Below are positions 3,673 to 29,590 of a stretch of DNA of 64,000 nucleotides, one piece after another. The position numbers and the translations under genes were made by a program. Source of the stretch: Archangium gephyra (lineage in GTDB: Bacteria; Myxococcota; Myxococcia; Myxococcales; Myxococcaceae). Position 1 is the first letter of the stretch. Each line of letters opens with the position of its first letter. The DNA lies in the NCBI RefSeq assembly GCF_001027285.1, contig NZ_CP011509.1:1558501-1622500 (forward strand). Reading direction: 5' to 3'. The notes under the pieces are model-generated. The model was not told the origin of the DNA. It ran no database searches and saw only the letters and a program-made list of their open reading frames with translations.

Positions 3673-4227
3673 TTATTTTCCGGGTGTCGCGCCGGTCCGG
3701 TCCTGGAGCGGGGGGCGATAGCGGGCCGTCGTCACGCTGCCGCCGAGGTCGACGGTGATGACCGGCTCGGCGATGTCCCCCTCGGGGAGGGCGGCGGCGA
3801 GCCCTGGCTGCGGGAGGACGAGAAGCCTGCCCTCCTCGAGGGTCAGGACGTGGCCCTCCCGGGTCACCGGCGTGCTCGACAGGTGGAGCGTGATGGAGGT
3901 GGCCTCCACGAGCGTGTCCGGGTTCTCGAACATCGGCGCGGAGACATGCACGGGGCGGGCGGGAACACTCACGCCCTCGCTGGAGCACGTCCAGGATGTC
4001 CCCTCGCTCCGGGGCGGCGGGGAGGCCTCTTCCCCCGGCGCGACGAAGACGACGCGGGCGGGAGTGGCCACGGGGCTCGAGTCCGCCTGGCTCAACAGGT
4101 AGGCGCAGGGCGGTTCGGCGGGGGTGAGGCTCCAGACCAGCAGTCCCGCGAGCGGCACACCACAGAACAGTGGCAGCCACTGGCGGAAGGTCGCTCGCTG
4201 CTTCTCACTCGGACCGGAAGGGCGCAC
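3673..4227 (-). CDS. Hypothetical membrane-anchored protein
   Basis: A 184-aa protein that I do not recognise. It has a short cytoplasmic start, one hydrophobic segment near residues 16-32 (WLPLFCGVPLAGLLVWSL), then an extracytoplasmic part with no known motif. The start is GTG, 46 bases downstream of the Ig-like lipoprotein stop on the same strand. It may be the last gene of the caspase operon, though spacing is wider than among the other members. Two cysteines in the exported part could form a disulfide. Confidence 0.6.
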   Translation of the reverse strand: MRPSGPSEKQRATFRQWLPLFCGVPLAGLLVWSLTPAEPPCAYLLSQADSSPVATPARVVFVAPGEEASPPPRSEGTSWTCSSEGVSVPARPVHVSAPMFENPDTLVEATSITLHLSSTPVTREGHVLTLEEGRLLVLPQPGLAAALPEGDIAEPVITVDLGGSVTTARYRPPLQDRTGATPGK

Positions 4228-4272: not shown

Positions 4273-5361
4273 TCAATACACCGTCAGCCGCACGGTGAGC
4301 GTCGAGGGCGAGGGGGGCAACAGGCCTCCGGCCGTGGCGGTGACGTTGAATTCGTACAGTCCCGCCTGGGTGGGCGTGCCGGAGAGGACGCCCGTTTCGG
4401 CATTCAAGGCGAGGCCCGGCGGCAGGGTGGCGCTCACCCGCTTCCAGGTCCAGGTGACGGAGGTGGGGGTGCTCTGGAGGGAATGGGTATACGCCGAGCC
4501 CACGCGTGCATCCGGGAGGGCGCTGCTCTTGATGCAGACCTCGGAGCCCGAGCAGGCGATGGAGGTGAGCTGGAGGCGGCGCACTCGGCTCTGCGGAGGC
4601 TCGTCGGAGTCGGTGACGCGGACCTCGAAGGGCGGAGTGCCCGTGCCCGCGTAGGCCGCGCCGTCGAGCTTGCCGTTGCCACGCAGGACGATGCCCGGGG
4701 GCAGGGCGCCACTGGAGAGCTCGAAGGTGTAGGGCGGCTTGCCTCCGGTGGCGGAGAGCGTCTCCACGTAGTCCTTGCCGCTCTCGAAGTACGCGAGGAC
4801 GTCCGGCCCGGCCAGGTGCAGCACGGGCCGGATGCGCACGGAGAATTGTTGGCTGGAGCGCTGGGGCTCGGCGCCCTGGTCCACCACCTCGACGGTGAAG
4901 CTGGAGTCGCCAGCGGTGAGCGGCTTGCCGGAGAGCTCCCCGCGCTGGGTGTCGAAGGACAGGCCCGGGGGCAGCTCGCCCGTGGTGGAGAAGGTGTACG
5001 GAGGCGTCCCGCCGTTGACCTGGAAGCGGTGGAAGTAGCTCACCGTCTCCGTGCCGGGCCCGGGGCCGTCCGGTATGAGCACGAGCTGCGCCGGGCCCGC
5101 GTCGGGGTCGCCGCCATCCGCGCCCGTGCCTCCGTCCGTGCCCATGCCCGAGGGCTCCTCGCCGGTGCAGGGCCCACGCTCGCCGCAGTCCGGGAGGCAG
5201 ACGCCCTCGGCGGCCAGGCACGTCCAGCCCGAGGCACAGGCCCCCTGCGCATCACACGCGGGGAAGCGGGAGAGGTTGGGTTGGAAGGTGCAGGCCCCCC
5301 CGGTGCAGGTCACCACTCCGAGGAGCACGGCCAGTCCCAGCCACGTCAGCCCCTGTCTCAT
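4273..5361 (-). CDS. Lipoprotein with tandem putative-Ig (He_PIG) domains
   Basis: A 362-aa exported lipoprotein. The N-terminus has a hydrophobic signal ending near VTCTGGAC. A short cysteine-rich segment follows (CDAQGACASGWTC, CLPDCGERGPC), typical of myxobacterial surface proteins, then a DGGTGADGGDPDAG linker. After that come three cadherin/Ig-like repeats recognised by GGTPPYTF...LPPGLSFD...GELSGKP, GGKPPYTF...LPPGIVL and LPPGLALNAETGVLSGTP. Such domains usually bind carbohydrate or protein at the surface. Its start overlaps the upstream stop as ATGA, so it is translationally coupled to the 251-aa gene before it. Confidence 0.87.
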   Translation of the reverse strand: MRQGLTWLGLAVLLGVVTCTGGACTFQPNLSRFPACDAQGACASGWTCLAAEGVCLPDCGERGPCTGEEPSGMGTDGGTGADGGDPDAGPAQLVLIPDGPGPGTETVSYFHRFQVNGGTPPYTFSTTGELPPGLSFDTQRGELSGKPLTAGDSSFTVEVVDQGAEPQRSSQQFSVRIRPVLHLAGPDVLAYFESGKDYVETLSATGGKPPYTFELSSGALPPGIVLRGNGKLDGAAYAGTGTPPFEVRVTDSDEPPQSRVRRLQLTSIACSGSEVCIKSSALPDARVGSAYTHSLQSTPTSVTWTWKRVSATLPPGLALNAETGVLSGTPTQAGLYEFNVTATAGGLLPPSPSTLTVRLTVY

Positions 5362-6113
5362 GGCAGCTCCCAGACGAAGAAGACGGCTCCCCCCGCCCCC
5401 AGCAGCGCGCCCGTCCCCATCAGCACGTTGGCCGTGCGCGCCTGCCGCTGGCCCTCCCGCAGGCGCCCGGTGAAGCAGGTGCGGAAGGCCTCGCCCTCGC
5501 CCGAGCAGCCCGCGTTGCCCTGGGAGAGCACCGCCTCCGTGTTGCGCGCCGCCAGCCCGAAACCCACTCCGGCCGCGAGCGCCACGCCGCCCGCCGCCAG
5601 CAGCACCGTGGGCCACACCTTGCCCGGGCTCTTCACCGCGCTGGCGGACAGGCGCGTCTTCCACAGCGTCTGGAAGGCCTCCTGGGCTCGCGCCTCCTCC
5701 TGGCCGGGCGGCAGTCCCTCTCCGGAGAGCTCGACGAGGGCGTGGGACTCGAGGCCCTCGCGGTCCACCAGCGAGAGCGCCACGCTGCGCCCTCCGCCCA
5801 CGCCGAGCGCGACGCCGCGCACCAGCCGCTGCGCGCCGAGCGCCTTCGCCTGCGCCCCCCGGCACGCCGCGTCCCCACAGCCGGGGAGCCGTCCACCCTG
5901 GGCTCGCACCTTGGCCACCGTGTCCGCGCGCGGCTCCAGGCACACGCCGGAGGTGCGCTCCGCCGCCCGGCGCACGGCGTCCTCCACCTGCCGGGCCTCG
6001 GCCGTGGACAGCGCCACCGGTTGCAAGGGGAGGAGCACCCACCGCTCGCCGCTCCTGCACGGGGCTGGGGCCTGCGCCAGCGACAGCGCCAGCGCGAAGG
6101 AGAGGAGACTCAT
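5358..6113 (-). CDS. Exported protein with C-terminal membrane helices, caspase-operon partner
   Basis: A 251-aa protein with signal peptide MSLLSFALALSLAQA. A globular domain of about 140 residues follows (ERWVLLPLQPVALSTAEARQVEDAVRRA), with a disulfide-rich CGDAACRG motif. It resembles the periplasmic CsgG/TolB-N-like domains common in myxobacteria, but this is a weak match by eye. Two hydrophobic segments near residues 178-200 and 226-248 probably anchor it. It is coupled by ATGA overlaps to both the caspase-like gene upstream and the Ig-like lipoprotein downstream, so the three products should be made together. Confidence 0.75.
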   Translation of the reverse strand: MSLLSFALALSLAQAPAPCRSGERWVLLPLQPVALSTAEARQVEDAVRRAAERTSGVCLEPRADTVAKVRAQGGRLPGCGDAACRGAQAKALGAQRLVRGVALGVGGGRSVALSLVDREGLESHALVELSGEGLPPGQEEARAQEAFQTLWKTRLSASAVKSPGKVWPTVLLAAGGVALAAGVGFGLAARNTEAVLSQGNAGCSGEGEAFRTCFTGRLREGQRQARTANVLMGTGALLGAGGAVFFVWELP

Positions 6114-7372
6114 GGCGAGAGGTCGGGCTGTTGCTCGGGCGCCACGGGCGTCTGCCCGAGGCTGGCCATGTACCCGGTGTAGAAGCGCGGGCCGAAGGGC
6201 ACGGAGAAGAGCCTGTCCCGCAGGGCGTCGTCCATCGCCCCCCGCGAGGCCAGGGCGTTGTCGCGCCACGAGAGGCCGGAGCCATCCACCACCGCGCCCG
6301 CGCGGGCGAAGCGGAAGGCGGCCTCGCGCCCCGCGCCTCGCAGGAAGTAGCCCTGCGAGGGAGGCAGTCCCAGCACCACCGAGCGCTCGCGCTCCTTGTG
6401 GAGCTCGGCCACCCGCAGGCCGCGCGCGTCCTCCACCCACAGCCGGCCCTCCAGGCCCGCCGGCAGCAGGAGGAAGCCCAGGCGCGCCTTGTCCCCCAGG
6501 TCCACCAGCGCCGCCGCCCGGTCGAGCGCGGGCGGTTGGATGGACACCTCGAGCCGGCCGCGCACGTCCTCCACGCCCTGGTTGGCGGCGGCGACGAAGG
6601 CGCTCAGCTCCGAGTACTCCACCCGCCCGTCCGCGTTGACATCCGCGGCGCCGGAGAGCGCGGAGAGCACCTGGTGGCTGAAGACGCCCGAGCGGATGGC
6701 GCTCCACTCGTGGCTCTCCTGCTCGCGGGTGGTGGAGAGCACGGCGCCCACGTTGGGGTAGCGCGTCAGCTCGCGCGTGGCGAGCAGTCCCTTCACCGCC
6801 TGCACCTGGGCGGGCGCCACCGGCAGCGCGCCGCGCGAGTTGACGAAGAAGTACGAGTCACACGCGTCCACGATGAGGTGGACGAAGGAGGCGGTGCTGG
6901 AGGCGATGACCTGGGAGTAGAGGTCCGTGCGGGTGAAGGGCCCGTCCAGCAGGCTCACCGAGCCCTCACCGGCGGGCCCGCGCTTGCCGTGGCCGGTGAA
7001 GACGAAATACAGCACGGGCGAGTCGCCCCGGGCCTTGTCCTCGGCCATGCGCGCGTTGAGCTGGCGGAGCGCCTCCTTGAGGGCGGCCCGGGTGGGCGGG
7101 CGCGTGCGGGCGGCGAGCCCCGGGTGGAGCGCCTGCGTGTCCGCGTCCAGCACGGAGAGGAACACCGTCTCCTGGGTGCGCGAGGAGAACAGCTCGAAGT
7201 AGCGCGCGCCGTCGTCATCGGCGTAGCGCAGGGGCGCCTGCTTGGGTTCGGTGCCGGTGTTGTTGGCGATGATGAGCGCGTAGGCGACCCGTGCGGGAGC
7301 GGCGCTCGCGGCGGAGCCAGCGAGGAGCGCGAGCCACAGCAGGGCTGCCGGAGCGCATCGGAGCGGTCGCAT
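6110..7372 (-). CDS. Secreted caspase-family (C14) protein with EF-hand-like motif
   Basis: A 420-aa protein starting MRPLRCAPAALLW with a Sec signal peptide cut after about residue 24. The caspase-like p20 fold is recognised by the dyad His128 in FTGHGKRG and Cys171 in VDACDSYFF, so catalysis is plausible. An EF-hand-type calcium loop, DVNADGRVEYSE, follows near residue 236. The C-terminal 150 residues form an unassigned beta-rich domain. Most bacterial metacaspase-like proteins are cytoplasmic, so the signal peptide makes this one unusual. It is first in an operon whose three genes overlap by ATGA. Confidence 0.9.
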   Translation of the reverse strand: MRPLRCAPAALLWLALLAGSAASAAPARVAYALIIANNTGTEPKQAPLRYADDDGARYFELFSSRTQETVFLSVLDADTQALHPGLAARTRPPTRAALKEALRQLNARMAEDKARGDSPVLYFVFTGHGKRGPAGEGSVSLLDGPFTRTDLYSQVIASSTASFVHLIVDACDSYFFVNSRGALPVAPAQVQAVKGLLATRELTRYPNVGAVLSTTREQESHEWSAIRSGVFSHQVLSALSGAADVNADGRVEYSELSAFVAAANQGVEDVRGRLEVSIQPPALDRAAALVDLGDKARLGFLLLPAGLEGRLWVEDARGLRVAELHKERERSVVLGLPPSQGYFLRGAGREAAFRFARAGAVVDGSGLSWRDNALASRGAMDDALRDRLFSVPFGPRFYTGYMASLGQTPVAPEQQPDLSP

Positions 7373-7639
7373 GCGCGGGGGGTCTCCGGGGGGGACAACG
7401 AGGGCGCTCAAGGTGCCACGGTTGCGTGTGGGGAATCCACCCGCCCCCTGGCGGGGCTCGGACCCGACAGGGGGTGTGTTGCTCAGACGACCCTGGACGT
7501 GCGGTCGGATGACCTGGGCGGGTGTGGCGGAATCGGGTCCATTCCACCCCATTTCCGCACTGCATGGGCACGGATGCGCTATGGCTTTCAAACCGTCTCT
7601 GCCGCGGCCGCATGGCTGCTCTCCTCGGAGCGTTCGGAC

Positions 7640-9595
7640 ATGCGGGCTTCCTCCTTTTTCGTCGTGATGCTTCTGGTGATGACGGCATGCCGAAGCCATT
7701 TGGAGGGTGGCGCGGGCTGCGAGACGCGCATGGACACCCCACTCCCGATACGCCCAGCCGGGGAGTTGGAAGGGGCGGAGGCGGTACGTGCCCAGGCCTG
7801 GGCGGCAGCGCGCGGGCTGAAATTCAAGGGAGCGTGGCTGACGCTGGGGTTGCGCGTGGAGGGCGAACGGGTCCAGCTGCTCGGCTTGAGCAAGCACGAG
7901 GGAATGGGTGCCGAGGCGAGCGCGGAAGAAGCCGGGAGCTTCCGCTCCCTGATGGATTGGGCGCTGTCCCGGTACGCACGGGGACAGCAGGGCGAGGTGG
8001 TGCTGACGCTGCGGAGGGGCGAGGGGAGGTGGAGGGAGGAGGTGGAGTCCACCGGCCTGGTGCTCTCGGCCACTCTGCCCGAGGCACCCTATGAGGCCTT
8101 CCTGCGCCACCAGCGCGAGAAGTTGTTGGCCCCTGTTCTCTCCGAGGAGGAGCGCGACGAGGGACTGACCGTGCTCAAGAGGTTGGAGCAGTGGCTGTTG
8201 CTGCAACCGCAGGGGGCATGGGAGCAGGCCCCTTCACCTCTGGAGAAGTACGTGACGCTGCTGGAGGAGGAGCGGCAGCGCGAGGTGCGCTGGCAGGCCG
8301 TGCAGCGCAAGCTGAGGGAGTACGAGGAATGGGGGCGTCAGCTGCTGGCCACCTACGTCCCGCCTCCCCGCCGCCTGGCACCGGGCTACCTGCTGAGCGA
8401 GTCGCCCCTGCGCGAGCAGTCGCTGCGGGCCCTGGGCAGTGCCACGCTGGCCTGGGCCTACGCGCATACAGAGGACCCGGACTTCCTGAAGCGCACACCC
8501 GATGAGGTAGCGCTCTACCTGCTGGCGAGCCGCTCGGCCCTGGCGAGCGCGGTGCGGTTGGGCCGGCTGGCACCGGTGCAACTGGACTACAACGAGGCTT
8601 TCGACTCGGAGGTGTACAAGCCCGAGGAGCTGTTGGTGGAAGTGCTGGTGGGCCTGACACCGGGCGCGGGCGAGGTGGCCGACGCACGGGCGGCCGTCAC
8701 CGGCAGGAGCATCACCGAGCACCGGCTCACGCGCACCGAGCGCGTGGTGTGTGCGCTGGCGGTGCTGTTGCCCTTCGTGGCCGGTGCGGTGCTGATTCGC
8801 GGCGGAGACGAGGGCGCGGATCAACTGGCGCTACTCACCGGCCGCAGCCTGGACGAGGTGCGGGTGCTCTCGCGGGTGGCCTCGCACCTCTCGCCGGCAG
8901 ACGCGAAGGAGATTGAGCGTCTGATGGCGGCGGCCTCTCGAGGCCACACCTTCACCGAGGAGGAGTGGCAATTCCTCCAGCGGGTGGCGCGTGGGCTGGA
9001 GGCTCCGTTGCGCGAGGCAGCCGGAGCACTGAAGGCGGGTCAGAAGGTGCCGCTGCTGGGGGCCCGCCTGCTGCCGGACGGGAGCCGGATGTTACCCGGT
9101 ACGCCCGCTCACAAGGCGCAGCGCTGGGTGGACTATCAGTTCCGCCACCCGGAGAAGTACCGCCGCTTTTCCTTCCAGCCGGACTCTGGCTGGGAGCGCA
9201 TGTACGCGTCCATCCTCGACAACCGGCAGGCGGGCAATGCCTTCGAGGACGCCATCCTCCAGACAGGGAGATACGAGCGCAACACCGCGATGATGATGCC
9301 TCCACCGGGCAGCCACGCGCGCGGCTTCATCCCCGACTCCGTCAAGGGCAACCCGGCGGAACTGGTGTGGGGCCAGCCCTACTCCTTCGTCGAGGCCAAG
9401 GCTCGCCAGAAGCTGCCCCTCACCGGCAATCTCGAGGCCATGATTGACTACGTCGATGAGTACGGTGGTCACATCGAGGTATGGATCCGCTCCATCCGGC
9501 ATGCCGATGGTCCTACGAGTCTTTCAGGACCACTGCTCCAGCGGTTGAATCGCTTGCAGCGGTTTGGCAAGGCAAGCGTAAGGCCTTACCCATGA
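7640..9595 (+). CDS. Lipoprotein polymorphic toxin with pre-toxin TG-like region and PD-(D/E)XK-like nuclease C-terminus
   Basis: A 651-aa protein starting MRASSFFVVMLLVMTAC with lipobox MTAC. A long helical N-terminal region of unknown fold is followed near residues 338-388 by a segment resembling pre-toxin TG domains (LTPGAGEVADARAAVTGR, then hydrophobic ALAVLLPFVAGAVLI). The last 125 residues carry GNAFEDAIL, then Asp566 in FIPDSV and Glu585-x-Lys587 in FVEAKAR, the spacing of a PD-(D/E)XK nuclease site. Outer-membrane lipoprotein toxins transferred between cells by contact are known in myxobacteria as SitA. This one looks like an independent version. The next gene probably encodes immunity. 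Confidence 0.8.
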   Translation: MRASSFFVVMLLVMTACRSHLEGGAGCETRMDTPLPIRPAGELEGAEAVRAQAWAAARGLKFKGAWLTLGLRVEGERVQLLGLSKHEGMGAEASAEEAGSFRSLMDWALSRYARGQQGEVVLTLRRGEGRWREEVESTGLVLSATLPEAPYEAFLRHQREKLLAPVLSEEERDEGLTVLKRLEQWLLLQPQGAWEQAPSPLEKYVTLLEEERQREVRWQAVQRKLREYEEWGRQLLATYVPPPRRLAPGYLLSESPLREQSLRALGSATLAWAYAHTEDPDFLKRTPDEVALYLLASRSALASAVRLGRLAPVQLDYNEAFDSEVYKPEELLVEVLVGLTPGAGEVADARAAVTGRSITEHRLTRTERVVCALAVLLPFVAGAVLIRGGDEGADQLALLTGRSLDEVRVLSRVASHLSPADAKEIERLMAAASRGHTFTEEEWQFLQRVARGLEAPLREAAGALKAGQKVPLLGARLLPDGSRMLPGTPAHKAQRWVDYQFRHPEKYRRFSFQPDSGWERMYASILDNRQAGNAFEDAILQTGRYERNTAMMMPPPGSHARGFIPDSVKGNPAELVWGQPYSFVEAKARQKLPLTGNLEAMIDYVDEYGGHIEVWIRSIRHADGPTSLSGPLLQRLNRLQRFGKASVRPYP

Positions 9596-9655
9596 GGCAC
9601 TCCTGACCCACAAGCCCACGCTCGCCTCTCCGTACCTTTCGAGGTCCGCCCGGCA

Positions 9656-10459
9656 ATGCCCATCAAGTCCGTTGAAACCCAGATAAGCCTTCCTCCGGGC
9701 CGCCTTTCGGGCGAATGCGTGAGGGAGTTCCTCGAGCTCGCTCTTCGCGGGTATGGGTGGTTCGAGCCGAGACGCTACGGCTCCGCGTCCCTGGGGAAAA
9801 CCATTGAGCCGGGCCGGCTCGACCTCGCGCCACTCGTTGCTCACTACGAGGAACGCAAGAGCCTGTGTATCGCCGCCAGGACAGACCGGGATTTCATCTG
9901 GTTCTCGCCATCCCCGGCCGATGCTCCACCTCACGCGGGTGACATCTCCTGGATCACCTCCGCCCGCTCGGCCTCCAACGCATCCTGGCGTGCCGCCCAT
10001 GCGCAACAAGTGCTCGAGCTGATGCGCCTCGTGCAATCACCGTTGGCGCTGTCGGGCCTGGAGACGGATCTCCACGCGAAGCAATGGCGGCTCGTTCACA
10101 AGAGCATTCCCACGGAAGACGAAAAGGAGTTCACCTTCTCGGAACGGGAGTTCACCGTCCGCGACTACAGCCAGGGGCTTGCGGGCCTCGTCTGGCGCAA
10201 CTTCTTCGGGCCTCCCTTCCTGCGCATGTTCGGCCAGCGTCTCGGCACACTGCCCGTGGGATGCCGCGAGTCGCTCGGAGAGGACGTCGTCCTCGTCCAG
10301 CCCTACGTGCTGCCCACCGAGGCCGGCACCGAGGCTGGCGTGGCCCGCGAGCGCGAGCTCATGTCCCTGCTCGGCTCCGAGTGCTTCTACGACCACGAGC
10401 GTCACACCCTTCCCACCCGTCGCCCTGTTCTTGACGCACTCGGTCATCCCCTGCACTGA
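9656..10459 (+). CDS. Probable immunity protein for the upstream toxin
   Basis: A 267-aa soluble protein, no signal peptide or membrane segment, starting MPIKSVETQISLPPGRL 60 bases after the toxin stop. I recognise no specific domain. Size, cytoplasmic location and its place directly after a toxin gene fit the large Imm families found beside myxobacterial polymorphic toxins. WFEPRRYG near the N-terminus and ECFYDHERH near the C-terminus are possible family signatures. The role is inference from position only. Confidence 0.6.
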   Translation: MPIKSVETQISLPPGRLSGECVREFLELALRGYGWFEPRRYGSASLGKTIEPGRLDLAPLVAHYEERKSLCIAARTDRDFIWFSPSPADAPPHAGDISWITSARSASNASWRAAHAQQVLELMRLVQSPLALSGLETDLHAKQWRLVHKSIPTEDEKEFTFSEREFTVRDYSQGLAGLVWRNFFGPPFLRMFGQRLGTLPVGCRESLGEDVVLVQPYVLPTEAGTEAGVARERELMSLLGSECFYDHERHTLPTRRPVLDALGHPLH

Positions 10460-10590
10460 GCGCTTCCAGTCGCCACCGGCTCCAGTCGGCCCATCCCACA
10501 GCCCCCCACCCCGCCGGGCCAGCGGGCGGCCGGGGCCCTCGTGGTGACGATTGTCGAACCCTGGGGATCCAACCCGGCGGTCAAATCGCA

Positions 10591-11283
10591 ATGACAGCAA
10601 GAGCGATGGGTGACGGGGACGGGCGGGGCACGGTAAGTCGCCGAGGGATGGAGTGGGATGCGCGGACATTGCAACGCTTCCGGGACGGTGAGCCGGAGAC
10701 CCTGGGACGGGTGTACCGGGCGCACGCGGAGACGTTGGCACGGATGCTGCGGGCCATGGCGTGGCGGGGGCGGGGCTTCGGGCAGATGAGGGGCGCGCTG
10801 GAGCTGGAGAACACGGTGCTGGAGACGTTCGCCCGGGCCTTCGAGCCGCGGGCGAGGGCGGCGTACGACGGGGTGCGGCCGTACGGGCACTTCCTGGTGG
10901 GCATCGCGCGCAACGTGCTGTTGGAGCAGACGCGGCAGCGCGAGGTGGCGGTGGGGCTGGAGCCCTTCGAGGAGACGGGCGGGGTGCCCGAGGAGGGCGA
11001 GGGCCTGGCGCAGACCTTGGAGGACCGGGAGGTGGAGGGGTTGCTGGCGGTCTTCAAGGGCGGGCTGTCGGAGGAGGAGCGGCGGCTGTTCGAGCTGCGC
11101 TTCGGCGAGGACGGGCTGGCGCAGGAGAGCGCGGCGGAGCAGCTGGGGCTGACGCGCATCCAGGTGCGGCGGCGGGAGCTGGGGTTGAAGACGCGGCTGC
11201 TCGAGTTCCTGCAGGCGCGGGGGTACCTGGAAGGGATGGAAGTGAAGGGGTGGAGCTTCTTCAAGCGGCGAGGCCAGTCATGA
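10591..11283 (+). CDS. RNA polymerase sigma-70 family factor, ECF-like
   Basis: A 230-aa ECF-like sigma factor. Region 2 covers about residues 25-95 (FRDGEPETLGRVYRAHAETL to YGHFLVGIARNVLLEQ). Region 4 is a helix-turn-helix near residues 165-205 (LSEEERRLFELRF, AAEQLGLTRIQVRRRELGLKTRL). The start could also be the ATG at 10648 (MEWDARTLQRF); the annotated start has no clear ribosome site. The stop overlaps the next start as ATGA, the classical arrangement of a sigma factor with its regulator. Confidence 0.88.
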   Translation: MTARAMGDGDGRGTVSRRGMEWDARTLQRFRDGEPETLGRVYRAHAETLARMLRAMAWRGRGFGQMRGALELENTVLETFARAFEPRARAAYDGVRPYGHFLVGIARNVLLEQTRQREVAVGLEPFEETGGVPEEGEGLAQTLEDREVEGLLAVFKGGLSEEERRLFELRFGEDGLAQESAAEQLGLTRIQVRRRELGLKTRLLEFLQARGYLEGMEVKGWSFFKRRGQS

Positions 11284-12035
11284 CGAGGTGTGGGGACCGG
11301 CAGGCGAAGCAGGCGCTGGAGGCGCTCTTCCGGGGCGAGCTGGACGGGGAGGGCTTCCACCGTTTGCGCGCGCACGCCGCGGGGTGTGACGAGTGCCACG
11401 AGGCCTACGACAAGCTGGGCCGGGTGGAGTCGGCGCTGGAGCAGCGTGCGTTGCCCGCGAGCCGGGAGGCGCTGCTGGAGAAGGAGCTGATGGCACGGCT
11501 GGGCGCCGCCGCGACGCCGGCCCGGGCACCGGTGCGGACCGAGCGCGCGAGTTTCTTCCCGCGCTTCCTGGTGCCGGCGATGGCGGGGCTGGCGATGGCG
11601 GGGCTGGCGCTGCTGGTGGTGGTGCCGCAGCTGCGGACGCGCGAGTCGGAGTGGCAGTCGCGTGGCGGAGAGAAGGGCACGGCGGCCTGGGGCATCCGGG
11701 TGTTCTGCGTGGGCGCGGACGGACAGGTGCGGGGCGAGGCGAGGCCGGGCGGCAGGCTGGTGTGCGGAGAGGGGAGCGCGGTGCAGTTCAGCTACACGGC
11801 GCCGGAGGCGGCGAGGCTGACGGTGGAGGCGACCTCGCCCGAGGGGGAGCCGCTGCGCTTCTTCCCGCCGGAGGGCACGGTACAGGTGGTGGAGGCGGGA
11901 GTGGACGTCCTCCTGCCGCTGAGCACGCCGGTGCAGGAGGGCTGGCTCGCCGGGCCGCTGGAAGTGCGAGCAACCTTCGAGGATGCCCAGGGCCGCGCGC
12001 TTTCCAGGACGCACCTGACGCTGACCCCTCGGTAA
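11280..12035 (+). CDS. Putative membrane anti-sigma factor with zinc-finger motif
   Basis: A 251-aa single-pass membrane protein, translationally coupled to the sigma factor. The N-terminal 55 residues hold a ZAS-type motif, HAAGCDECHEAYDKL (H-x3-C-x2-C), the usual sigma-binding zinc domain. One transmembrane helix lies near residues 97-117 (FLVPAMAGLAMAGLALLVVV). The periplasmic part is a small beta domain with two cysteines (IRVFCVGADG, GRLVCGEG) that could form a disulfide. Anti-sigma role is inferred from context and motif; the signal it senses is unknown. Confidence 0.78.
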   Translation: MTRCGDRQAKQALEALFRGELDGEGFHRLRAHAAGCDECHEAYDKLGRVESALEQRALPASREALLEKELMARLGAAATPARAPVRTERASFFPRFLVPAMAGLAMAGLALLVVVPQLRTRESEWQSRGGEKGTAAWGIRVFCVGADGQVRGEARPGGRLVCGEGSAVQFSYTAPEAARLTVEATSPEGEPLRFFPPEGTVQVVEAGVDVLLPLSTPVQEGWLAGPLEVRATFEDAQGRALSRTHLTLTPR

Positions 12036-12719: not shown

Positions 12720-15700
12720 GTGAAGGCTCCTCGGGTTGGGTCAACGCCAAACCTCAGAACTGGAGCAGGCCCTTTGAATCGTCGCACCAGCCCATCCAGC
12801 CGTACCCAGACTGGGAAGAAGACCCGCAAGCCGACCACGCTCGCCCGCCACGCGCACGCCCGTCCCCGGCGGATCGCGACCGTCGAGGCGCTCGAGACAC
12901 TGCTGGAGTCCCTGCGCGCCGTCACCCACGGAGACTTCTCCGTGCGGCTTCCGCCCGAGGCACAGCCCCAGGCGATGGAGGACATCGCCCACGCCTTCAA
13001 CGCGATGGTGGCGATGAACCAGCGGATGCAGGACGAGCTGGTGCGCGTGGAGCGCGTGGTGGGCCGCGAGGGGCAGATGGCGGAGCGCGCGTCGCTCGGC
13101 CCGGTGAGTGGCGGCTGGGCCTCGAGCATCGGCTCCATCAACTCGCTCATCGCGGACCTGGTGCAGCCCACCACCGAGGTGGCGCGCGTGCTGGGCGCGG
13201 TGGCCCGCGGTGACCTGACGCAGAAGATGGCGCTGGACCTCCCGGGGCAGCCGGTGAAGGGCGAGTTCCTTCGCATCGGCACCACGGTGAACGCGATGGT
13301 GGATCAGCTCAGCTCCTTCGCCGCCGAAGTGACGCGCGTCGCGCGCGAAGTCGGTACGGAAGGAAAGCTGGGAGGCCAGGCGCGCGTGCCCGGGGTGGCC
13401 GGGACGTGGAAGGACCTCACCGACAGCGTGAACCAGCTGGCCAACAACCTCACCGCCCAGGTGCGTAACATCGCCGAGGTGACCACCTCCGTGGCCCGCG
13501 GTGACCTGTCGCGCAAGATTACGGTCGACGCGCGCGGCGAGGTGCTCGAGCTGAAGAACACCGTCAACACGATGGTGGATCAGCTCCGCTCGTTCGCGGG
13601 CGAAGTGACGCGCGTCGCGAAGGAAGTCGGTACCGAGGGCAAGCTGGGTGGCCAGGCCGACGTGCCCGGCGTCTCCGGCGTGTGGAAGGACCTCACCGAC
13701 AACGTGAACCTGATGGCCTCCAACCTCACCACCCAGGTGCGAGGCATCGTCAAGGTCGTGACGGCGGTCGCCAACGGGGACTTGTCCCAGCGCCTCGTCG
13801 TCGATGCCAAGGGCGAGGTGGCCGCGCTGGCCGACACGCTCAACAGCATGACGAAGACACTGGGCATCTTCGCCGACCAGGTGACCAGCGTCGCCAAGAC
13901 GGTGGGCGTGGAAGGCAAGCTGGGCGCCCAGGCGGATGTGCCCGGTGTGGCCGGTACGTGGAAGGACCTCACGGACAACGTGAACCTGCTGGCCAACAAC
14001 CTCACCGCCCAGGTGCGCAACATCGCCGAGGTGAGCACGGCCGTTGCCCGCGGTGACCTGTCCAAGAAGATCACCGTGGACGCGCGGGGCGAGGTGCTCG
14101 AGCTGAAGAACACCATCAACACGATGGTGGAGCAGCTCCGCTCGTTCGCCGGTGAGGTGACCCGCGTCGCGAAGGAAGTCGGTACGGAAGGAAAGCTGGG
14201 TGGCCAGGCCGACGTGCCCGGCGTCTCCGGTACCTGGAAGGACCTCACCGACAACGTGAACTTCATGGCCTCCAACCTGACCGCCCAGGTGCGCAACATC
14301 GCCCTGGTGACCACGGCGGTGGCCAATGGAGATCTGTCCAAGAAGATCACCGTGGACGTGAAGGGTGAGATCCTCGAGCTGAAGAACACCATCAACACGA
14401 TGGTGGACCAGCTCCGCTCGTTCGCCGCCGAAGTGACGCGCGTCGCGAAGGAAGTGGGTACGGAAGGAAAGCTGGGCGGCCAGGCCGAGGTGCAGGGCGT
14501 GTCGGGCGTCTGGAAGGACCTGACCGACAGCGTGAACTCGATGGCCTCCAACCTCACCAACCAGGTGCGCAACATCGCCAAGGTGACGACGGCGGTGGCC
14601 AATGGAGATCTGTCCAAGAAGATCACCGTCGACGCGAAGGGTGAAATCCTCGAGCTGAAGGACACCATCAACACGATGGTGGATCAGCTCAACGCGTTCG
14701 CTTCCGAGGTGACCCGCGTCGCGCGCGAGGTCGGTACCGAGGGCAAGCTGGGTGGCCAGGCGCGTGTGCCCGGGGTCGCCGGCACGTGGAAGGACCTCAC
14801 CGACAACGTGAACCTGATGGCCCGCAACCTGACCACGCAGGTGCGCGGCATCGTCAAGGTGGTGACCGCGGTCGCCAACGGCGACCTGACCCAGAAGCTC
14901 GTCGTCGACGCCAAGGGCGAGGTGGCCGCGCTGGCGGACACCATCAACAGCATGACGGACACGCTGGGCACCTTCGCGCAGCAGGTGTCCACGGTGGCCC
15001 GTGAGGTGGGTATCGAGGGCAAGCTGGGTGGCCAGGCCAAGGTGCCCGGTGCCCGCGGGGCCTGGAGGCAGCTGACCGACAACGTGAATCAGCTCGCCGG
15101 CAACCTGACGTCCCAGGTGCGCGCCATCTCCGAGGTGGCCACCGCCGTGACGAAGGGTGACCTGACGCGGTTCATCTCGGTGGATGCGGGCGGCGAGCTG
15201 GCCGCCCTGAAGGACAACATCAACCAGATGATCGTCAACCTCAAGGAGACGACCCAGAAGAACACCGAGCAGGACTGGCTCAAGACGAACCTGGCCAAGT
15301 TCTCCGGCATGATGCAGGGACAGAAGAACCTGGAGGCCGTCTCCCGGCTCATCATGTCCGAGCTGACGCCCCTGGTCTCCGCCCACCACGGTGCCTTCTT
15401 CCTCATGGACTCCGAGGAAGGCCACCCCGTGGCCAAGCTCACCTCCAGCTACGCCTACCGCGAGCGCAAGAACGTGGGCAACCGCTTCCGCCTCGGCGAG
15501 GGCGTGGTGGGCCAGTGCGCCCTGGAGAAGAAGACCATCCTCCTCACCCACGTGCCGGCGGACTACATCCGCATCACCTCCGGCCTGGGCGAGGCCAGCC
15601 CCCTCAATGTCATCGTCCTGCCCGTCCTCTTCGAGGGCGAGGTGAAGGCCGTCATCGAGCTGGCCTCCTTCCACCCGTTCAGCGCCATCCACCAGATCTT

Positions 15701-18053
15701 CCTGGACCAGCTCACCGAGAGCATCGGCGTGGTGCTCAACATGATCATGGCCAACATGCGCACCGAGGAGCTGCTGCGTCAGTCGCAGAGCCTCGCCAAC
15801 GAGCTGCAGAGCCAGTCGCGCGAGCTCACCCAGCAGCAGGAGGAGCTCAAGCGCTCCAACTCGGCGCTGGAGGCCCAGGCCCTCGAGCTGGAGGAGAAGG
15901 CCAAGCTGCTCGAGCAGCAGAACATCAAGGTGGAGGAGAAGAACCGCGAAGTGGAGCAGGCGCGCTCCTCCCTGGAGGAGAAGGCCGAGCAGCTCTCGCT
16001 CATCTCCAAGTACAAGAGCGAGTTCCTCGCCAACATGTCCCACGAGCTGCGCACGCCGCTCAACAGCATGCTGGTGCTCGCCAAGCTGCTCGCGGACAAC
16101 TCCGACGGCTCGCTGGGCCGCAAGCAGGTGGAGTACGCGGAGACCATCTACTCCTCGGGTGGGGATCTGCTGTCCCTCATCAACGAGATCCTCGACCTGT
16201 CCAAGGTGGAGGCCGGGAAGATGCAGGTGGAGCCGCGCGACTCCGCCGTGGCGGAGCTGGTGGAGTTCGCCCGCCGCACCTTCGGCCCCGTGGCCGAGCA
16301 GAAGCACCTGGGCTTCCTCACCGAGGTGGGCTCGGAAGTGCCCGCCACCGTCTTCACGGACCCCAAGCGGTTGCAGCAGATTTTGAAGAACCTGCTGTCC
16401 AACGCCTTCAAGTTCACCAGCACGGGCCAGGTGACGCTGCGCATCCGCATGGCGGACACCGAGGAGCGCTTCGCCGCGCCGGAGCTGGTGGAGGCCGACC
16501 AGGTGCTCGCCTTCTCCGTCATCGACACGGGCATCGGCATCCCCGAGGACAAGCAGAAGCTCATCTTCGAGGCCTTCCAGCAGGCGGATGGCACCACCAG
16601 CCGCAAGTACGGCGGCACCGGCCTGGGCCTCTCCATCAGCCGCGAGCTGGCGCGTCTGCTCGGCGGGGAAATCCGCGTGCGCAGCTCGCGCGGGGCCGGC
16701 AGCACCTTCACCCTTTACCTGCCGCGCAGCTACAGCGGCCCCGAGCGGGGCGGCGAGCCGGCCAGCGACTCGGACGTGGGCTACACCCCCATGCTGCGCG
16801 AGCTGCTGCCGCGCGACGAGGTGCACGGCACCGCGGCCCCCCACCCGCTGGTGGATGACCGCGATGACCTCGGCCCGGATGACCGCGTGCTGCTCGTCGC
16901 GGTGGATGACCTGGAGTTCGCCCGGGGCCTGGTGGCCACGGCCCACCAGAGCGGCCTCAAGGCCCTGGTGGCCACGCGCGGCGACGTGGCGCTCTCCCTC
17001 GCCCAGCGGCTCAAGCCGTACGCCATCGTCCTGCAGCTGGGCCTGCCCGTCATCGACGGCTGGAGCGTGTTGGATCAGCTCAAGCGCGACACGCGCACCC
17101 GCCGCATCCCCGTCCAGGTGGTGAGCGTGGACCGGCTGCGCGGCGCCTCGTGCGGCGGCGGCTTCGTCTACCTCGACCGGCCCTTCACCGCCGAGGCCAT
17201 CCAGGGCGCCTTCAGCCACCTGGAGCTCAAGGCCAACGGCCACCCGCGCAAGCTGCTGCTGGTGGACCCCAAGCCCGAGCTGCGTGACTGCGTGCAGCAG
17301 CTCATCGACATGGGCGAGTCCCTGGAGATGCGCCAGCTCGAGTCCAGCCGGGCCGTGGAGGCCCTGGACCGCGGCGAGGTGGACGCGCTCGCCCTGGACC
17401 TGGCCTCGCCCGGTGGACGGGGAATGAAGCTGCTGGTGGAGCTGGTGCGCCGGCCCGCCCGCCTGCCCCCCGTGCTCCTCTATAGCGGCTCGCAGCTCCT
17501 CCCGGATGACGAGCGGCGGCTGCGGCGCTCGGCCGAGGCCGTGCTGCTCGAGGCGGCCGCCCGCTCGCCCGAGGCCGTGCTCGGCGAGGTGGGCCGCTTC
17601 CTCCGCCGCGTGGGGGACCAGTCCCGCGCCTCCGCCGAGGAGTTGAAGGAGCTCTCCCGCTCGCTCACCGGCCGCAAGGTTCTTCTGGTGGACGATGACG
17701 CTCGTAACATCTTCGCTCTCACCAGCGTCCTGGAGAACCATGGCATGCAGGTGACGTTCGCCCAGGACGGACGGGCGGCCATGGACCTCATGGAGAAGAA
17801 TCCGGAACTGGATGTGGTTCTGTTGGACGTGATGATGCCGGAGATGGACGGCTACCAGGCGATGCGCGCCATCCGCGCGGATTCCCGGTGGGCGTCGCTG
17901 CCGGTCATCGCCATCACCGCGCGGGCGTTGAAGGACGACCGCGAGAAGTGCCTGGAAGCAGGCGCGTCCGATTATTTGTCCAAGCCGGTCGACACCGAGC
18001 GGCTTCTGGAGTTGATTCGCCGGTGGGTGGAGCCTTGCGCGGGAGCGAGATGA
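12720..18053 (+). CDS. Soluble hybrid histidine kinase with tandem HAMP array, GAF and three receiver domains
   Basis: A 1777-aa signalling protein, GTG start, no transmembrane segment. Residues 1-60 are basic. Residues about 60-830 form a HAMP array: a divergent first unit, then repeats of 92 aa with [15 protein letters not shown] and [12 protein letters not shown] signatures. Next are GAF (865-1010), a coiled coil, HisKA with His1108 in MSHELRTP, and HATPase (1215-1330). Then come two degenerate receivers (the first reads VLQLGLP where the phospho-acceptor Asp should be) and a complete receiver with Asp1703 in [12 protein letters not shown]. The architecture is like fungal group III (Nik1/Os-1) osmosensor kinases. 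The stop overlaps the next kinase gene as ATGA. Confidence 0.95.
13185..15210 (+). repeat. Tandem 276-bp repeats encoding HAMP units
   Basis: Seven successive units of about 276 bp (92 codons) inside the hybrid kinase gene. They can be followed by the recurring GGTACGGAAGGAAAGCTGGG-type segment near 13356, 13630, 13900, 14182, 14457, 14733 and 15010, with a final shorter unit near 15150. Units alternate between two subtypes: one with [15 protein letters not shown], the other with [14 protein letters not shown]. Copies keep long identical stretches at the DNA level, consistent with duplication or gene conversion. Confidence 0.9.
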
Positions 18054-26183: not shown

Positions 26184-27626
26184 ATGGAGAAGGTCCTCAA
26201 CTACATCGGCGGAGAGCTGGTCTCCCCGAGCTCCCAGGTCTGGTTCGACAAGCCGGACCCCTCCACCGGAGAGCCTTCCGTTCAGGTGCCGGACTCGGAC
26301 GAGAAGGACATCCAGCGCGCCGTGGAGGCCGCCCGGAACGCGTTTCCGGCCTGGGCCGCCACCCCGGCCACCGAGCGGGCGCGATTGCTGCGCCGCGTCG
26401 CGGAGGCCATCCGCACCCGGCTGGACGCCTTCGCCCGCGCCGAGGCCATCGACACCGGCAAGCCGCTGAAGCTGGCCTCCACGATGGACATTCCGCGGAG
26501 CATCCAGAACTTCGAGTTCTTCGCGGACGCGGTGACGCAGTTCTCCACCGAGGCCCACGTCATGGACGGCGGGGCGCTCAACTACACGCTGCGCTCGCCG
26601 CTGGGCGTGGTGGGCTGCATCTCGCCGTGGAACCTGCCCCTCTACCTGCTCACCTGGAAGCTCGCGCCCGCGCTGGCCATCGGTAACTGCGTGGTGGCCA
26701 AGCCCTCCGAGGTGACGCCCATGACGGCGTACCTGCTCGCCCAGGTGTGCCGCGAGGTGGGCCTGCCTCCGGGCGTGCTCAACCTCGTCCACGGCTACGG
26801 CGCCAAGGTGGGCTCCGCGATGAGCCGCCACCCGGACATCAGCGCCATCTCCTTCACCGGAAGCACGCGCACGGGCGCGGAGATCGCCCGCACCGCCGCG
26901 CCGCTCTTCAAGAAGCTCTCGCTGGAGATGGGCGGCAAGAACCCCAACGTCATCTTCGCCGACTGCGACTTCGACGAGGCCCTGGCCACCACGGTGCGCT
27001 CGTCCTTCTCCAACCAGGGTCAAATCTGTCTCTGTGGCTCGCGCATCTTCGTGCAGGCCCCCATCTACGAGCGCTTCAAGGCGGCGCTGGTGGAGCGCAC
27101 GAAGGCGTTGAAGGTGGGGGATCCGCTGGAGCCCTCGACGGACCAGGGCGCGCTGGTGTCTCCGCAGCACTTCGAGAAGGTGATGGGCTGCATCGAGGTG
27201 GCGCGCAAGGAAGGCGGCCGCGTCCTCACCGGAGGCAAGCGCGCCGAGGTGCCGGGCCGCTGCCGCAACGGCTGGTTCGTGGAGCCCACGCTCATCGAGG
27301 GCCTGGGCCACGCGTGCGCGACCAACCAGGAGGAGATTTTCGGCCCGGTGGCCACCATCACCCCCTTCGAGAAGGAGGAGGAGGTGCTCGCCTGGGCCAA
27401 CAGCACGCGCTACGGGCTGGCGGCGAGCGTGTGGACGCGCGACGTCACCCGGGCGCACCGCTTCGCCGCGAAGCTGGAGAGCGGCATCGTCTGGGTGAAC
27501 TGCTGGATGCTGCGTGACCTGCGCACGCCGTTCGGCGGCGTGAAGGAGTCGGGCGTGGGACGCGAGGGCGGCTGGGACGCGCTGCGCTTCTTCACCGAGC
27601 CCAAGAACGTGTGCGTGAAGCTATGA
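26184..27626 (+). CDS. 2-aminomuconic semialdehyde dehydrogenase
   Basis: A 480-aa NAD-dependent aldehyde dehydrogenase of normal length. The general-base Glu is in LSLEMGGKNP (about residue 252). The nucleophilic Cys is in NQGQICLCGSR (about 286); the QICLC form is typical of the hydroxymuconic/aminomuconic semialdehyde group (AmnC, NbaE, DmpC). It oxidises 2-aminomuconate-6-semialdehyde to 2-aminomuconate. First gene of the operon, with a strong GAGGAGG site. The stop overlaps the next start as ATGA. Assignment to the aminomuconate rather than hydroxymuconate substrate rests on the operon. Confidence 0.9.
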   Translation: MEKVLNYIGGELVSPSSQVWFDKPDPSTGEPSVQVPDSDEKDIQRAVEAARNAFPAWAATPATERARLLRRVAEAIRTRLDAFARAEAIDTGKPLKLASTMDIPRSIQNFEFFADAVTQFSTEAHVMDGGALNYTLRSPLGVVGCISPWNLPLYLLTWKLAPALAIGNCVVAKPSEVTPMTAYLLAQVCREVGLPPGVLNLVHGYGAKVGSAMSRHPDISAISFTGSTRTGAEIARTAAPLFKKLSLEMGGKNPNVIFADCDFDEALATTVRSSFSNQGQICLCGSRIFVQAPIYERFKAALVERTKALKVGDPLEPSTDQGALVSPQHFEKVMGCIEVARKEGGRVLTGGKRAEVPGRCRNGWFVEPTLIEGLGHACATNQEEIFGPVATITPFEKEEEVLAWANSTRYGLAASVWTRDVTRAHRFAAKLESGIVWVNCWMLRDLRTPFGGVKESGVGREGGWDALRFFTEPKNVCVKL

Positions 27627-28054
27627 GCAACTCCGATCGAGTCGATTCCCAGAAGGCCCCGGAGCCGGTGGGCCTCTATCCCCACGCCCGGCGCGTGGGC
27701 AACCTGCTCTTCCTCTCGGGCGTGGGTCCGCGCGAGCGTGGGAGCAAGAAGATCCCCGGCGTCGAGCTGGATGCCCAGGGCAACATCGTCTCCTACGACA
27801 TCGAGACGCAGACGCACTCGGTGTTCCGCAACGTGCGCTACATCCTGGAGGAGGCGGGCTCCTCGTGGGATCGGCTCGTGGACGTGACGGTGTACCTCAC
27901 GGACATGAAGAAGGACTTCCCCACGTACAACCGCCTGTGGGCCGAGTACTTCAAGGACGTGCCCACCCCGCCGTGCCGGACGACGCTCGGCATCACCGCG
28001 TTGCCCACCCCCATCGCCATCGAGCTGAAGTGCCTCGCGACCATCGGAGACTGA
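27623..28054 (+). CDS. 2-aminomuconate deaminase, RidA family
   Basis: A 143-aa RidA/YjgF-family protein with [34 protein letters not shown] and PPCRTTLGI, the last holding the conserved arginine. The segment [26 protein letters not shown] is the extension seen in AmnD/NbaF-type deaminases rather than generic RidA. It converts 2-aminomuconate to 4-oxalocrotonate with release of ammonia. Coupled by ATGA to the dehydrogenase and one base from the next gene. Confidence 0.9.
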
Positions 28055-28055
28055 G

Positions 28056-28580
28056 ATGAGCCGGCTGCAGCCCCTCAACTTCAAGAAGTGGATTGACGAG
28101 CATCGCCACCTGCTCAAGCCCCCCGTGGGCAACCAGATGGTGTGGCAGGACCGGGACTTCATCGTGATGGTGGTGGGCGGGCCCAACTCGCGCACCGACT
28201 ATCACATCGACGCGAGCGAGGAGTTCTTCTACCAGCTGGAGGGGGACATCACCCTGCGCGTCATGGAGGATGGCAAGCCGCAGGACATCCCCATCCGCGA
28301 GGGGGAGATCTTCCTCTTGCCCCCCAACGTGCCGCACTCGCCGCAGCGCCCCGCGGGCACGGTGGGCCTGGTCATCGAGCGCAAGCGCCGCGAGGGCGAG
28401 CTGGACGGCTTCGCGTGGTTCTGCCCCCAGTGCAACACCAAGCTGTATGACGAGTACCTCCAGGTGACCAACATCGTCACCCAGCTGCCGCCCATCTTCG
28501 AGCGCTTCTACGGCAACCCGGAGCACTGCACCTGCAAGCAGTGCGGCTTCAAGCTGACCCGAGAGCAGCGCAAGGCATGA
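28056..28580 (+). CDS. nbaC: 3-hydroxyanthranilate 3,4-dioxygenase
   Basis: A 174-aa cupin dioxygenase. Iron ligands appear as His50 (TDYHID), Glu56 (SEEFFYQ) and His94 (NVPHSP), one residue off the numbering of the Cupriavidus enzyme. Substrate-binding arginines are Arg46 and Arg98. The C-terminal CPQC and CKQC pairs form the second, rubredoxin-like iron site of bacterial enzymes. It opens 3-hydroxyanthranilate to 2-amino-3-carboxymuconate semialdehyde. The stop overlaps the decarboxylase start as ATGA. Confidence 0.96.
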
Positions 28581-29590
28581 AGATCGACATCCACACGCAC
28601 CTGCTGCCGCCCGAGATGCCGCGCTTCGCCGAGCGCTATGGCTACGGCGGCTTCATGACGCTGGAGCACCACGCCCCGTGCCGGGCGCGCATGGTGCGCG
28701 ATGACGGGAAGTTCTTCCGGGAGGTTGAGAGCAACTGCTGGGATCCGGTGAAGCGCATCGAGGAGTGTGATGCGCACGGCGTCAGCGTGCAGGTGCTGTC
28801 CACGGTGCCGGTGATGTTCGGCTACTGGGCGAAGCCGGAGCACGGGTTGGACCTGTCGCGCTTCCTCAATGATCAGCTGGCCTCGGTGGTGCGAGCGCAC
28901 CCCAGGCGCTTCGTGGGCCTGGGCACGGTGCCCTTGCAGTCCCCCGAGCTGGCCGTGCGCGAGCTGGAGCGCTGCATGCGCGAGCTGGGGATGGCGGGCG
29001 TGCAGGTGGGCTCGCACGTCAACGGGCTCAACCTGGGCGAGCCGGAGCTGTTCCCCTTCTTCGAGGCCGCGGCCGAGCTGGGCGCCGCCATCTTCGTCCA
29101 CCCCTGGGACATGCTGGGCGAGGCGCGGATGAAGAAGTACTGGATGCCCTGGCTGGTGGGCATGCCCGCCGAGGTCGCGCTGGCCATCTGCTCGCTGCTC
29201 TTCGCGGGCACGCTGGAGAAGCTGCCCAAGCTGCGGCTCGCCTTCGCGCACGGCGGCGGCGCCTTCCCGGGCACCTTCGGCCGCATCGAGCACGGCTTCC
29301 AGGTGCGGCCGGACCTCGTCGCGGTGGACAACCCCGTGCCGCCCCGCGAGTACCTGGGCCGCTTCTGGGTGGACTCGCTGGTGCACGACCCGGACATGCT
29401 GCGCTTCATCGTGAAGCTGTTCGGCCCGGACAAGGTGGCCCTGGGCAGTGACTATCCCTTCCCCCTCGGCGAGGACCGGCCGGGCACGTTGGTGGAGTCC
29501 CTCGCGGAGTTCGACGCCACCACCCGGGAGAAGCTGTTGTGCCGCAACGCGCTCGCGTGGCTCGGGCGCTCGTATGAGGAGTTCAAGTAG
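28577..29590 (+). CDS. nbaD: 2-amino-3-carboxymuconate-6-semialdehyde decarboxylase (ACMSD)
   Basis: A 337-aa amidohydrolase-superfamily zinc enzyme. Metal ligands are His6 and His8 in [12 protein letters not shown], a central His in IFVHPWDM (about residue 174) and an Asp in [12 protein letters not shown] near 295. [12 protein letters not shown] holds the catalytic histidine. By decarboxylating ACMS it steers the pathway away from quinolinate and NAD and toward 2-aminomuconate, so the operon is catabolic. The next ATG follows its stop with no gap. Confidence 0.96.

Follow-up and report, generated by a model that had tools for sequence, protein, structure and literature searches.

This locus raises the question of what a bacterial caspase-like protease, predicted to be exported, would cut in the cell envelope. 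We analyzed a 64,000-nucleotide stretch of Archangium gephyra (contig NZ_CP011509.1, positions 1,558,501 to 1,622,500; hereafter the window, in which positions are counted from the first letter). It contains a gene for a caspase-like protein of 420 amino acids (P0001; 6110..7372, minus strand), for which the initial annotation had suggested a calcium-regulated, three-gene protease assembly in the envelope. The window holds, near certainly, one copy of a module of sigma factor, anti-sigma factor and caspase from myxobacteria, which are predators in soil, and this set is nearly constant among the relatives of the caspase in Myxococcota. The explanation that we favor as the best one overall, and hold with moderate confidence, is that the caspase would act as an Arg/Lys-specific site-1 protease of its own anti-sigma, cutting it just outside the membrane; it is based on sequence and on analogy with known systems.

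The sigma factor (P0004; 10648..11283, plus strand) is extracytoplasmic function (ECF)-like. It matched Sigma70_r4 at 28.1 bits against a cut-off of 24.1; its region 2 had no match in Pfam and reached 34.3 bits (E 1.7e-8) with TIGR02937, against a cut-off of 42.9. The anti-sigma (P0005; 11280..12035, plus strand) carries a zinc motif, HxxxCxxC, followed by one transmembrane helix located by hydropathy, and a periplasmic beta-sandwich, with beta strands at residues 138-249 in the AlphaFold2 (AF2) model. H32, C36 and C39 of the zinc motif were invariant in all 27 sequences of the anti-sigma alignment (A3), and zf-HC2 matched at E 0.0036, with 17.8 bits against a cut-off of 22.2. Both genes are located about 3.3 kb from the caspase gene, divergently to it. 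In the window, a toxin-like gene pair (7640-10459) separates the caspase from the sigma gene; this pair is not at this place in L058-L060 (locus numbers are ours), and in L058-L062 the sigma and anti-sigma genes directly adjoin the caspase gene, likewise divergent. Because these two unrelated genes are inserted in the window, the sigma/anti-sigma pair was hard to spot for the initial annotation.

Linkage of the caspase with a sigma factor extends beyond the window. The genome (12.49 Mb) contains 11 caspase matches, the window's included, and a Sigma70_r4_2 match lies no farther than 1.2 kb from 8 of them. About 0.02 would be expected per caspase gene by arithmetic from the number of such matches in the genome, at least 64 when 150 of the 272 first-look candidates were scored. 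Among relatives, a sigma-like gene was found within five genes of the caspase in 49 of 50 loci, the single miss being L015; this count leaves out L094, which has no caspase call, and includes L018, in which the sigma region lies inside the caspase open reading frame (ORF). Within four genes, the count was 67 of 76 named loci (80 loci less four with no caspase call). The nine misses were L105, L136, L144 and L183, together with L152, L153, L156, L162 and L164, which lie at most 0.6 kb from a contig end; L105 is the same record as L056, where the sigma gene sits five genes away. From a search with an anti-sigma profile, 35 loci were taken, 28 without and 7 with a caspase alongside among the matches listed, and a caspase was present at 24 of the former and all 7 of the latter. 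The other four were L308, with metalloproteases instead, L314, with none, and L333 and L334, which end soon after the anti-sigma gene. Gene order was sigma-anti-sigma-caspase, caspase-sigma-anti-sigma or divergent, and linkage was kept (L016, L322, L324). The anti-sigma and caspase genes overlapped by 4 bp in 27 of 45 co-directional loci. Further, caspase and anti-sigma distances were correlated (r 0.93 over 92 loci), and the nearest neighbours of caspase and sigma agreed in 60 of these 92 loci.

Two of these loci have unusual architectures. L018 (4492-6372; C1:12352491 region of the same genome) is a single ORF that joins a signal-peptide-like start, a caspase, TPR and a sigma factor. This fusion may reflect a lost stop codon or an assembly error, because caspase and sigma are encoded separately in the apparent orthologues L322 and L324. 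In L308 (2891-6664), the sigma and anti-sigma genes are followed by two secreted metalloproteases in the caspase slot, of which the first matches NCBIfam MXAN_2677/MXAN_2678 below the cut-off and the second was recognized by eye.

The association with sigma factors has been known since 2012: four of the five metacaspases of M. xanthus share one operon with a sigma-70 gene, like the arrangement here, and such operons also occur in Anaeromyxobacter, Haliangium, Sorangium, Ralstonia and Fibrobacter (Asplund-Samuelsson et al., 2012; PMC3501461; for this and the other papers cited, we refer to the parts of the text that were accessible). The main text of that account does not use the term anti-sigma, and those parts propose no model of cleavage and name neither a motif nor a maturation site. 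What is new here is a motif in the anti-sigma linker and a matching site in the caspase.

The predicted cleavage site of the anti-sigma is W125-Q-S-R128/G129 (WQSR before GG; 11652..11666, plus strand) in the juxtamembrane linker. Near-invariant positions in the alignment of 27 sequences were L29, Y43, R128, P175, A231 and G238, and R128 alone lies in this linker. In the anti-sigma class of the window, the linker varies in length; the predicted local distance difference test (pLDDT) score was below 50 at residues 111-134 of the AF2 model. Of 100 distinct caspase-linked anti-sigmas, 92 passed filters, and 76 of these 92 have the strict motif [FWL]-x-[APSTV]-[RK]-[GS] no more than 32 residues from the helix, compared with a mean of 3.0 and a maximum of 9 in 500 shuffles of the linkers. 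In 27 other zinc-finger anti-sigmas, taken as controls from this genome and its relatives, it was found once (Fisher p 3e-14, without correction for descent). These controls were reduced from 44 to 28 by removal of near-duplicates and to 27 by removal of the window's own anti-sigma (L223), and their caspase linkage was judged only within loci of about 3 kb. P1 of the motif was 6-21 residues past the helix (median 13), and was R in 72 cases and K in 4. On reading, most of the 16 anti-sigmas without the strict motif show K-G, R-A, R-T, R-K or other basic variants. A first, looser regular expression (95 of 100) was dropped for spurious matches at the membrane edge. The MALT1 paracaspase consensus is S/P-R before G/A with a mostly hydrophobic P4, as in the substrate sites LQPR before G and FMSR before G (PMC6237847), and the linker motif appears close to it.

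The caspase carries the catalytic residues of peptidase family C14. Peptidase_C14 matched at 29.8 bits (cut-off 21.4), and Pfam gave nothing else apart from a weak EF hand, with no TPR-CHAT. His128 (codon 6989..6991, minus strand) and Cys171 (codon 6860..6862, minus strand), with Asp169 two residues before the Cys (D-x-C), were invariant in 34 of 34 sequences. The catalytic dyad, reported as intact by the initial annotation, was indeed present in all 50 aligned relatives, and the D-x-C signature in 49 of 50. We take the D-x-C to have a role in the S1 pocket. The caspase is probably specific for basic residues (Arg/Lys), judging from its sequence; bacterial orthocaspases have this specificity (PMC8283722). 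Because a sequence search of the PDB with P0001 gave EF-hand proteins only (E at least 0.12), a fold comparison was needed. The AF2 model (mean pLDDT 84.7) has the clan CD peptidase fold. The top Foldseek matches by E-value were MALT1 (TM-score 0.36), plant metacaspase 9 and GSU0716; with a second aligner, metacaspase 9 (Z 18.7, root mean square deviation 3.3, 231 residues aligned) and the legumain-type 6l4v (Z 18.7) were followed by GSU0716 (Z 17.0) and MALT1 (Z 15.9).

The caspase also contains a putative self-processing site, V177-N-S-R180/G181 (VNSR before G; 6830..6844, minus strand), nine residues past Cys171 and just before a low-confidence loop (mean pLDDT 51 at residues 181-190 and 57 at 191-200). 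The maturation site of human caspase-3 lies 12 residues past the Cys. The column of R180 was R or K in all 126 aligned caspases, nine residues past the catalytic Cys in most, and of the 102 that were scored by pattern, 97 had Gly after the basic residue. Autocatalysis of the bacterial relative MaOC1 is described as Ca-independent (PMC8283722), and no cleavage-site consensus for it was found in the accessible text of PMC7935541.

The annotated signal peptide was predicted by a simple heuristic, which 101 of 114 caspases pass, and several of the 13 failures have visibly short start calls. In the annotated calcium loop, D244, D248 and E255 of the 12-residue EF-hand-like stretch D244-E255 (D-V-N-A-D-G-R-V-E-Y-S-E; 6608..6643, minus strand) were kept in 34 of 34 sequences, while the EF-hand Pfam score of 13.3 is below the cut-off of 25.9. 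Regular expressions over the 114 caspases (H box 95, D-x-C 102, EF loop 106) are lower bounds, as the patterns are narrow, and alignments were used instead. The caspase of L097, in the same genome and with no nearby sigma match, has by eye no evident signal peptide, no loop motif and no basic-Gly (n = 1).

The residue at the two sites agreed. In 124 of 126 pairs, the caspase and anti-sigma sites were both R (86) or both K (38); two pairs were R/K and none K/R. The 126 pairs remained from 131 after L161, L319, L083, L163 and L139 were dropped for mis-called or truncated genes, and the anti-sigma states of L312 and L329 were assigned by hand from their linkers. Two changes of the caspase site fall on the caspase tree, one at the split of two classes and one at L179, and both were matched in the anti-sigma.

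We propose the following sequence of events. The ECF-like sigma would be held at the inner membrane by the one-helix anti-sigma, and the caspase would be exported into the compartment of the anti-sigma's periplasmic domain. An envelope signal, possibly calcium and possibly passed on by an Ig lipoprotein and a second protein encoded behind the caspase, would trigger the caspase, which would mature by a self-cut after R180 (VNSR/G). The mature enzyme would then cut the anti-sigma after R128 (WQSR/GG) in its linker; site-2 and cytosolic proteases would complete the breakdown and free the sigma. A site-2 protease homologue is present in the genome (TIGR00054 above the cut-off). Free sigma may then switch on the caspase operon and perhaps its own operon, in a positive loop.

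Candidate promoters exist for both operons. That of the caspase operon, GGATT-N15-TGGCA (7414..7438, minus strand), is the one match in the window, with 0.17 expected; among the 36 loci with a divergent caspase, 24 have GGATY-N14-16-TGGCA upstream of it (22 of 32 without four duplicate records; 0.02 in mononucleotide shuffles), the pattern having been picked after part of these sequences had been read. These matches suggest control of the caspase operon by the sigma. That of the sigma operon, GGATC-N16-TCGCAA (10565..10591, plus strand), also matches once in the window (0.06 expected), and the sigma-side pattern was found upstream of sigma in only 7 of 36 loci (window, L055, L056, L057, L060, L104 and L105, of which L104 and L105 repeat L055 and L056), which hints weakly at autoregulation. 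A sigma-54-type caspase promoter was considered by eye and dropped for its wrong spacing.

Several observations weigh against the proposed cleavage. The motif was defined after the sequences had been seen and the anti-sigmas are homologous, so that the count of 76 of 92 makes the cases look more independent than they are. After clustering at 60%, 45% and 35% identity, the motif was present in the majority of members of 39 of 53, 28 of 40 and 10 of 21 clusters, respectively. Disorder of the linker is weakly shown, because low pLDDT extends over part of the membrane helix too. The R/K agreement rests on about two independent switches, and two changes at the anti-sigma site (L068, L149) have no match in the caspase. 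Nearest neighbours of caspase and anti-sigma agreed in 47 of 92 loci only. Several other anti-sigmas gave no match to the zinc motif, such as those of L016, L021, L073, L074 and L086. Legumain, which is Asn-specific, is among the closest folds. Finally, in a distant anti-sigma class (that of L308 and L314), the motif abuts the periplasmic domain, and the homologous anti-sigmas of L308 (LGVKG) and L314 (TVKGS) retain K-G without a caspase, so the basic-Gly of this class may be structural. In three members of the distant class that were scanned, DUF4384 in the periplasmic domain scored above the cut-off in L016 and L018 and below it in L013. In the window's own anti-sigma class no caspase-free example turned up, and no search was aimed at one.

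The alternative that survives best, possible and yet clearly less likely in our judgment, is that the caspase is an output: the sigma would run an envelope or predation protease and be activated in some other way, and the linker motif would have a structural role, leading into the periplasmic domain. It accommodates the K-G kept in L308 and L314, the two metalloproteases in the caspase slot of L308, and the promoter-like site kept upstream of divergent caspases, which in the window's genus has a similar counterpart ahead of the sigma gene. It fits less well with the class of the window, in which the motif sits in a linker of variable length and low model confidence; the 4-bp overlaps, the R/K agreement of both sites and the linkage that stays while gene order varies also speak for cleavage of the anti-sigma by the caspase. 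A second alternative, which we regard as unlikely, is that the anti-sigma binds and inhibits the caspase with the motif as pseudo-substrate, restraining protease and sigma together. The similar patterns in linker and caspase loop and the translational coupling would agree with it, but P1' is mostly Gly or Ser, with nothing there to resist cleavage, and a free linker would probably make a poor inhibitor. A calcium-regulated three-gene protease assembly unrelated to sigma, as first suggested, is very improbable: its three genes are kept together in 31 relatives and the EF-like loop is invariant in 34 of 34 sequences, but sigma and anti-sigma are conserved well past the two partner genes.

The operon itself was annotated correctly. 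The three ORFs overlap by stop/start ATGA at 6110-6113 (caspase and protein 2) and 5358-5361 (protein 2 and protein 3). Protein 2 (5358..6113, minus strand; 251 amino acids) has a signal-peptide-like start and, by eye, two hydrophobic stretches near its C terminus. Protein 3 (4273..5361, minus strand; 362 amino acids) belongs to an Ig-repeat lipoprotein family, with three stretches of He_PIG repeats (E 2.4e-29, Pfam), and its lipobox is imperfect in the window and better in several orthologues by eye. These features agree with the membrane protein and Ig-like lipoprotein of the initial annotation. NCBIfam gave no usable match for the trio, and a weak one only for protein 3. By blastp (E up to 1e-3), proteins 2 and 3 were encoded behind the caspase in every locus of two sets, L055-L069 (15 of 15) and L104-L124 (21 of 21); five records are common to both sets, which leaves 31 distinct relatives. 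The nearest named relative in the scan was Archangium violaceum (caspase identity 96%). Because no match to both partners was found at that place in the remaining loci, the trio is limited to the window's own caspase subfamily; similarly, protein 2 is not a constant part of the module, because its best further match in the genome reached E 0.0015 only. An envelope-located caspase with a calcium-type loop thus still fits the sequence, but not as a stand-alone assembly, since sigma and anti-sigma persist more widely. A fourth gene for a small protein (3673..4227, minus strand) neighbours protein 3 in L055-L061 by eye; its membership is uncertain, as a similar-looking gene is downstream in the nearest relatives only. 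An anti-phage defence system was considered and rejected, PADLOC having no match for the trio.

With somewhat less confidence, we extend the proposal of anti-sigma cleavage to the family: exported caspases may be dedicated Arg/Lys-specific site-1 proteases of one-helix anti-sigmas, a new form of signalling across the membrane that is expanded in myxobacteria and in which maturation and anti-sigma sites evolve to the same residue, so that the roughly 10 paralogous modules in one genome could be separated partly by cleavage specificity. DegS makes a periplasmic site-1 cut in the one-helix anti-sigma RseA. The cut proposed here is of the same type, but the site-1 protease would be a clan CD cysteine peptidase encoded with its anti-sigma. 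In Craspase (CASP, type III-E CRISPR), the caspase-like protease Csx29 cleaves Csx30, which inhibits an ECF-like sigma, and so lifts the inhibition as we propose here; further, CASP-sigma has motifs within its own locus, which can be likened to the present module (PMC10028731). Craspase differs in being an RNA-activated TPR-CHAT protease, whereas here an exported C14 protein would act on a transmembrane zinc-finger anti-sigma (PMC10028731). EACC2-caspase conflict systems (2021) resemble the module in having a caspase domain with an ECF sigma gene in the neighbourhood and a proposed transcriptional response; in these systems, which occur with DUF1822 TPR genes, EACC2 and variable sensor domains are fused to the caspase, and no exported caspase or membrane anti-sigma is described in the accessible text (PMC8195603). 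ECF54 sigmas with CHAT neighbours also place a caspase-superfamily protein beside an ECF sigma, with proteolysis proposed, but are described as regulated without an anti-sigma (PMC8999054). MALT1 is alike in fold and in its S/P-R before G/A consensus, but is a human cytosolic signalling protease, and no sequence-level relationship to it was seen (PMC6237847; PMC12953060).

In the literature covered, to which subscription papers mostly do not belong, we found no proposal of an exported caspase that cuts an anti-sigma. If the proposal holds, caspase-driven freeing of a transcription factor by cleavage of its inhibitor would occur at the bacterial envelope too, in parallel to Craspase and MALT1 and with a MALT1-like motif. 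One large family would gain a concrete predicted partner, substrate and cut site in the long-standing question of bacterial caspase function.

Among paralogous caspases, those of subfamily B, such as L012 (3985-5685), have about 150 additional C-terminal residues that by eye resemble outer-membrane beta-barrel strands; if these strands are real, they would anchor the caspases in the outer membrane. Directly behind the caspase of L012 (5821-9483) is a gene whose large product has a lipoprotein-like start and contains fn3 and FG-GAP repeats, and lipoprotein-like genes were repeatedly found behind these caspases by eye. Of the gene pair inserted in the window, the toxin-like gene (7640-9595) matches the PT-TG pre-toxin domain of Pfam at 26.1 bits (cut-off 23.5) and its product starts like a lipoprotein, its partner (9656-10459) has no family match, and a PHROGs search of the pair gave nothing. 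Elsewhere in the window, 12774-18053 encodes a histidine kinase of very large size, in which HAMP-like units are repeated many times, and 26184-32255 is a gene run resembling a kynurenine/tryptophan breakdown operon, both judged by eye.

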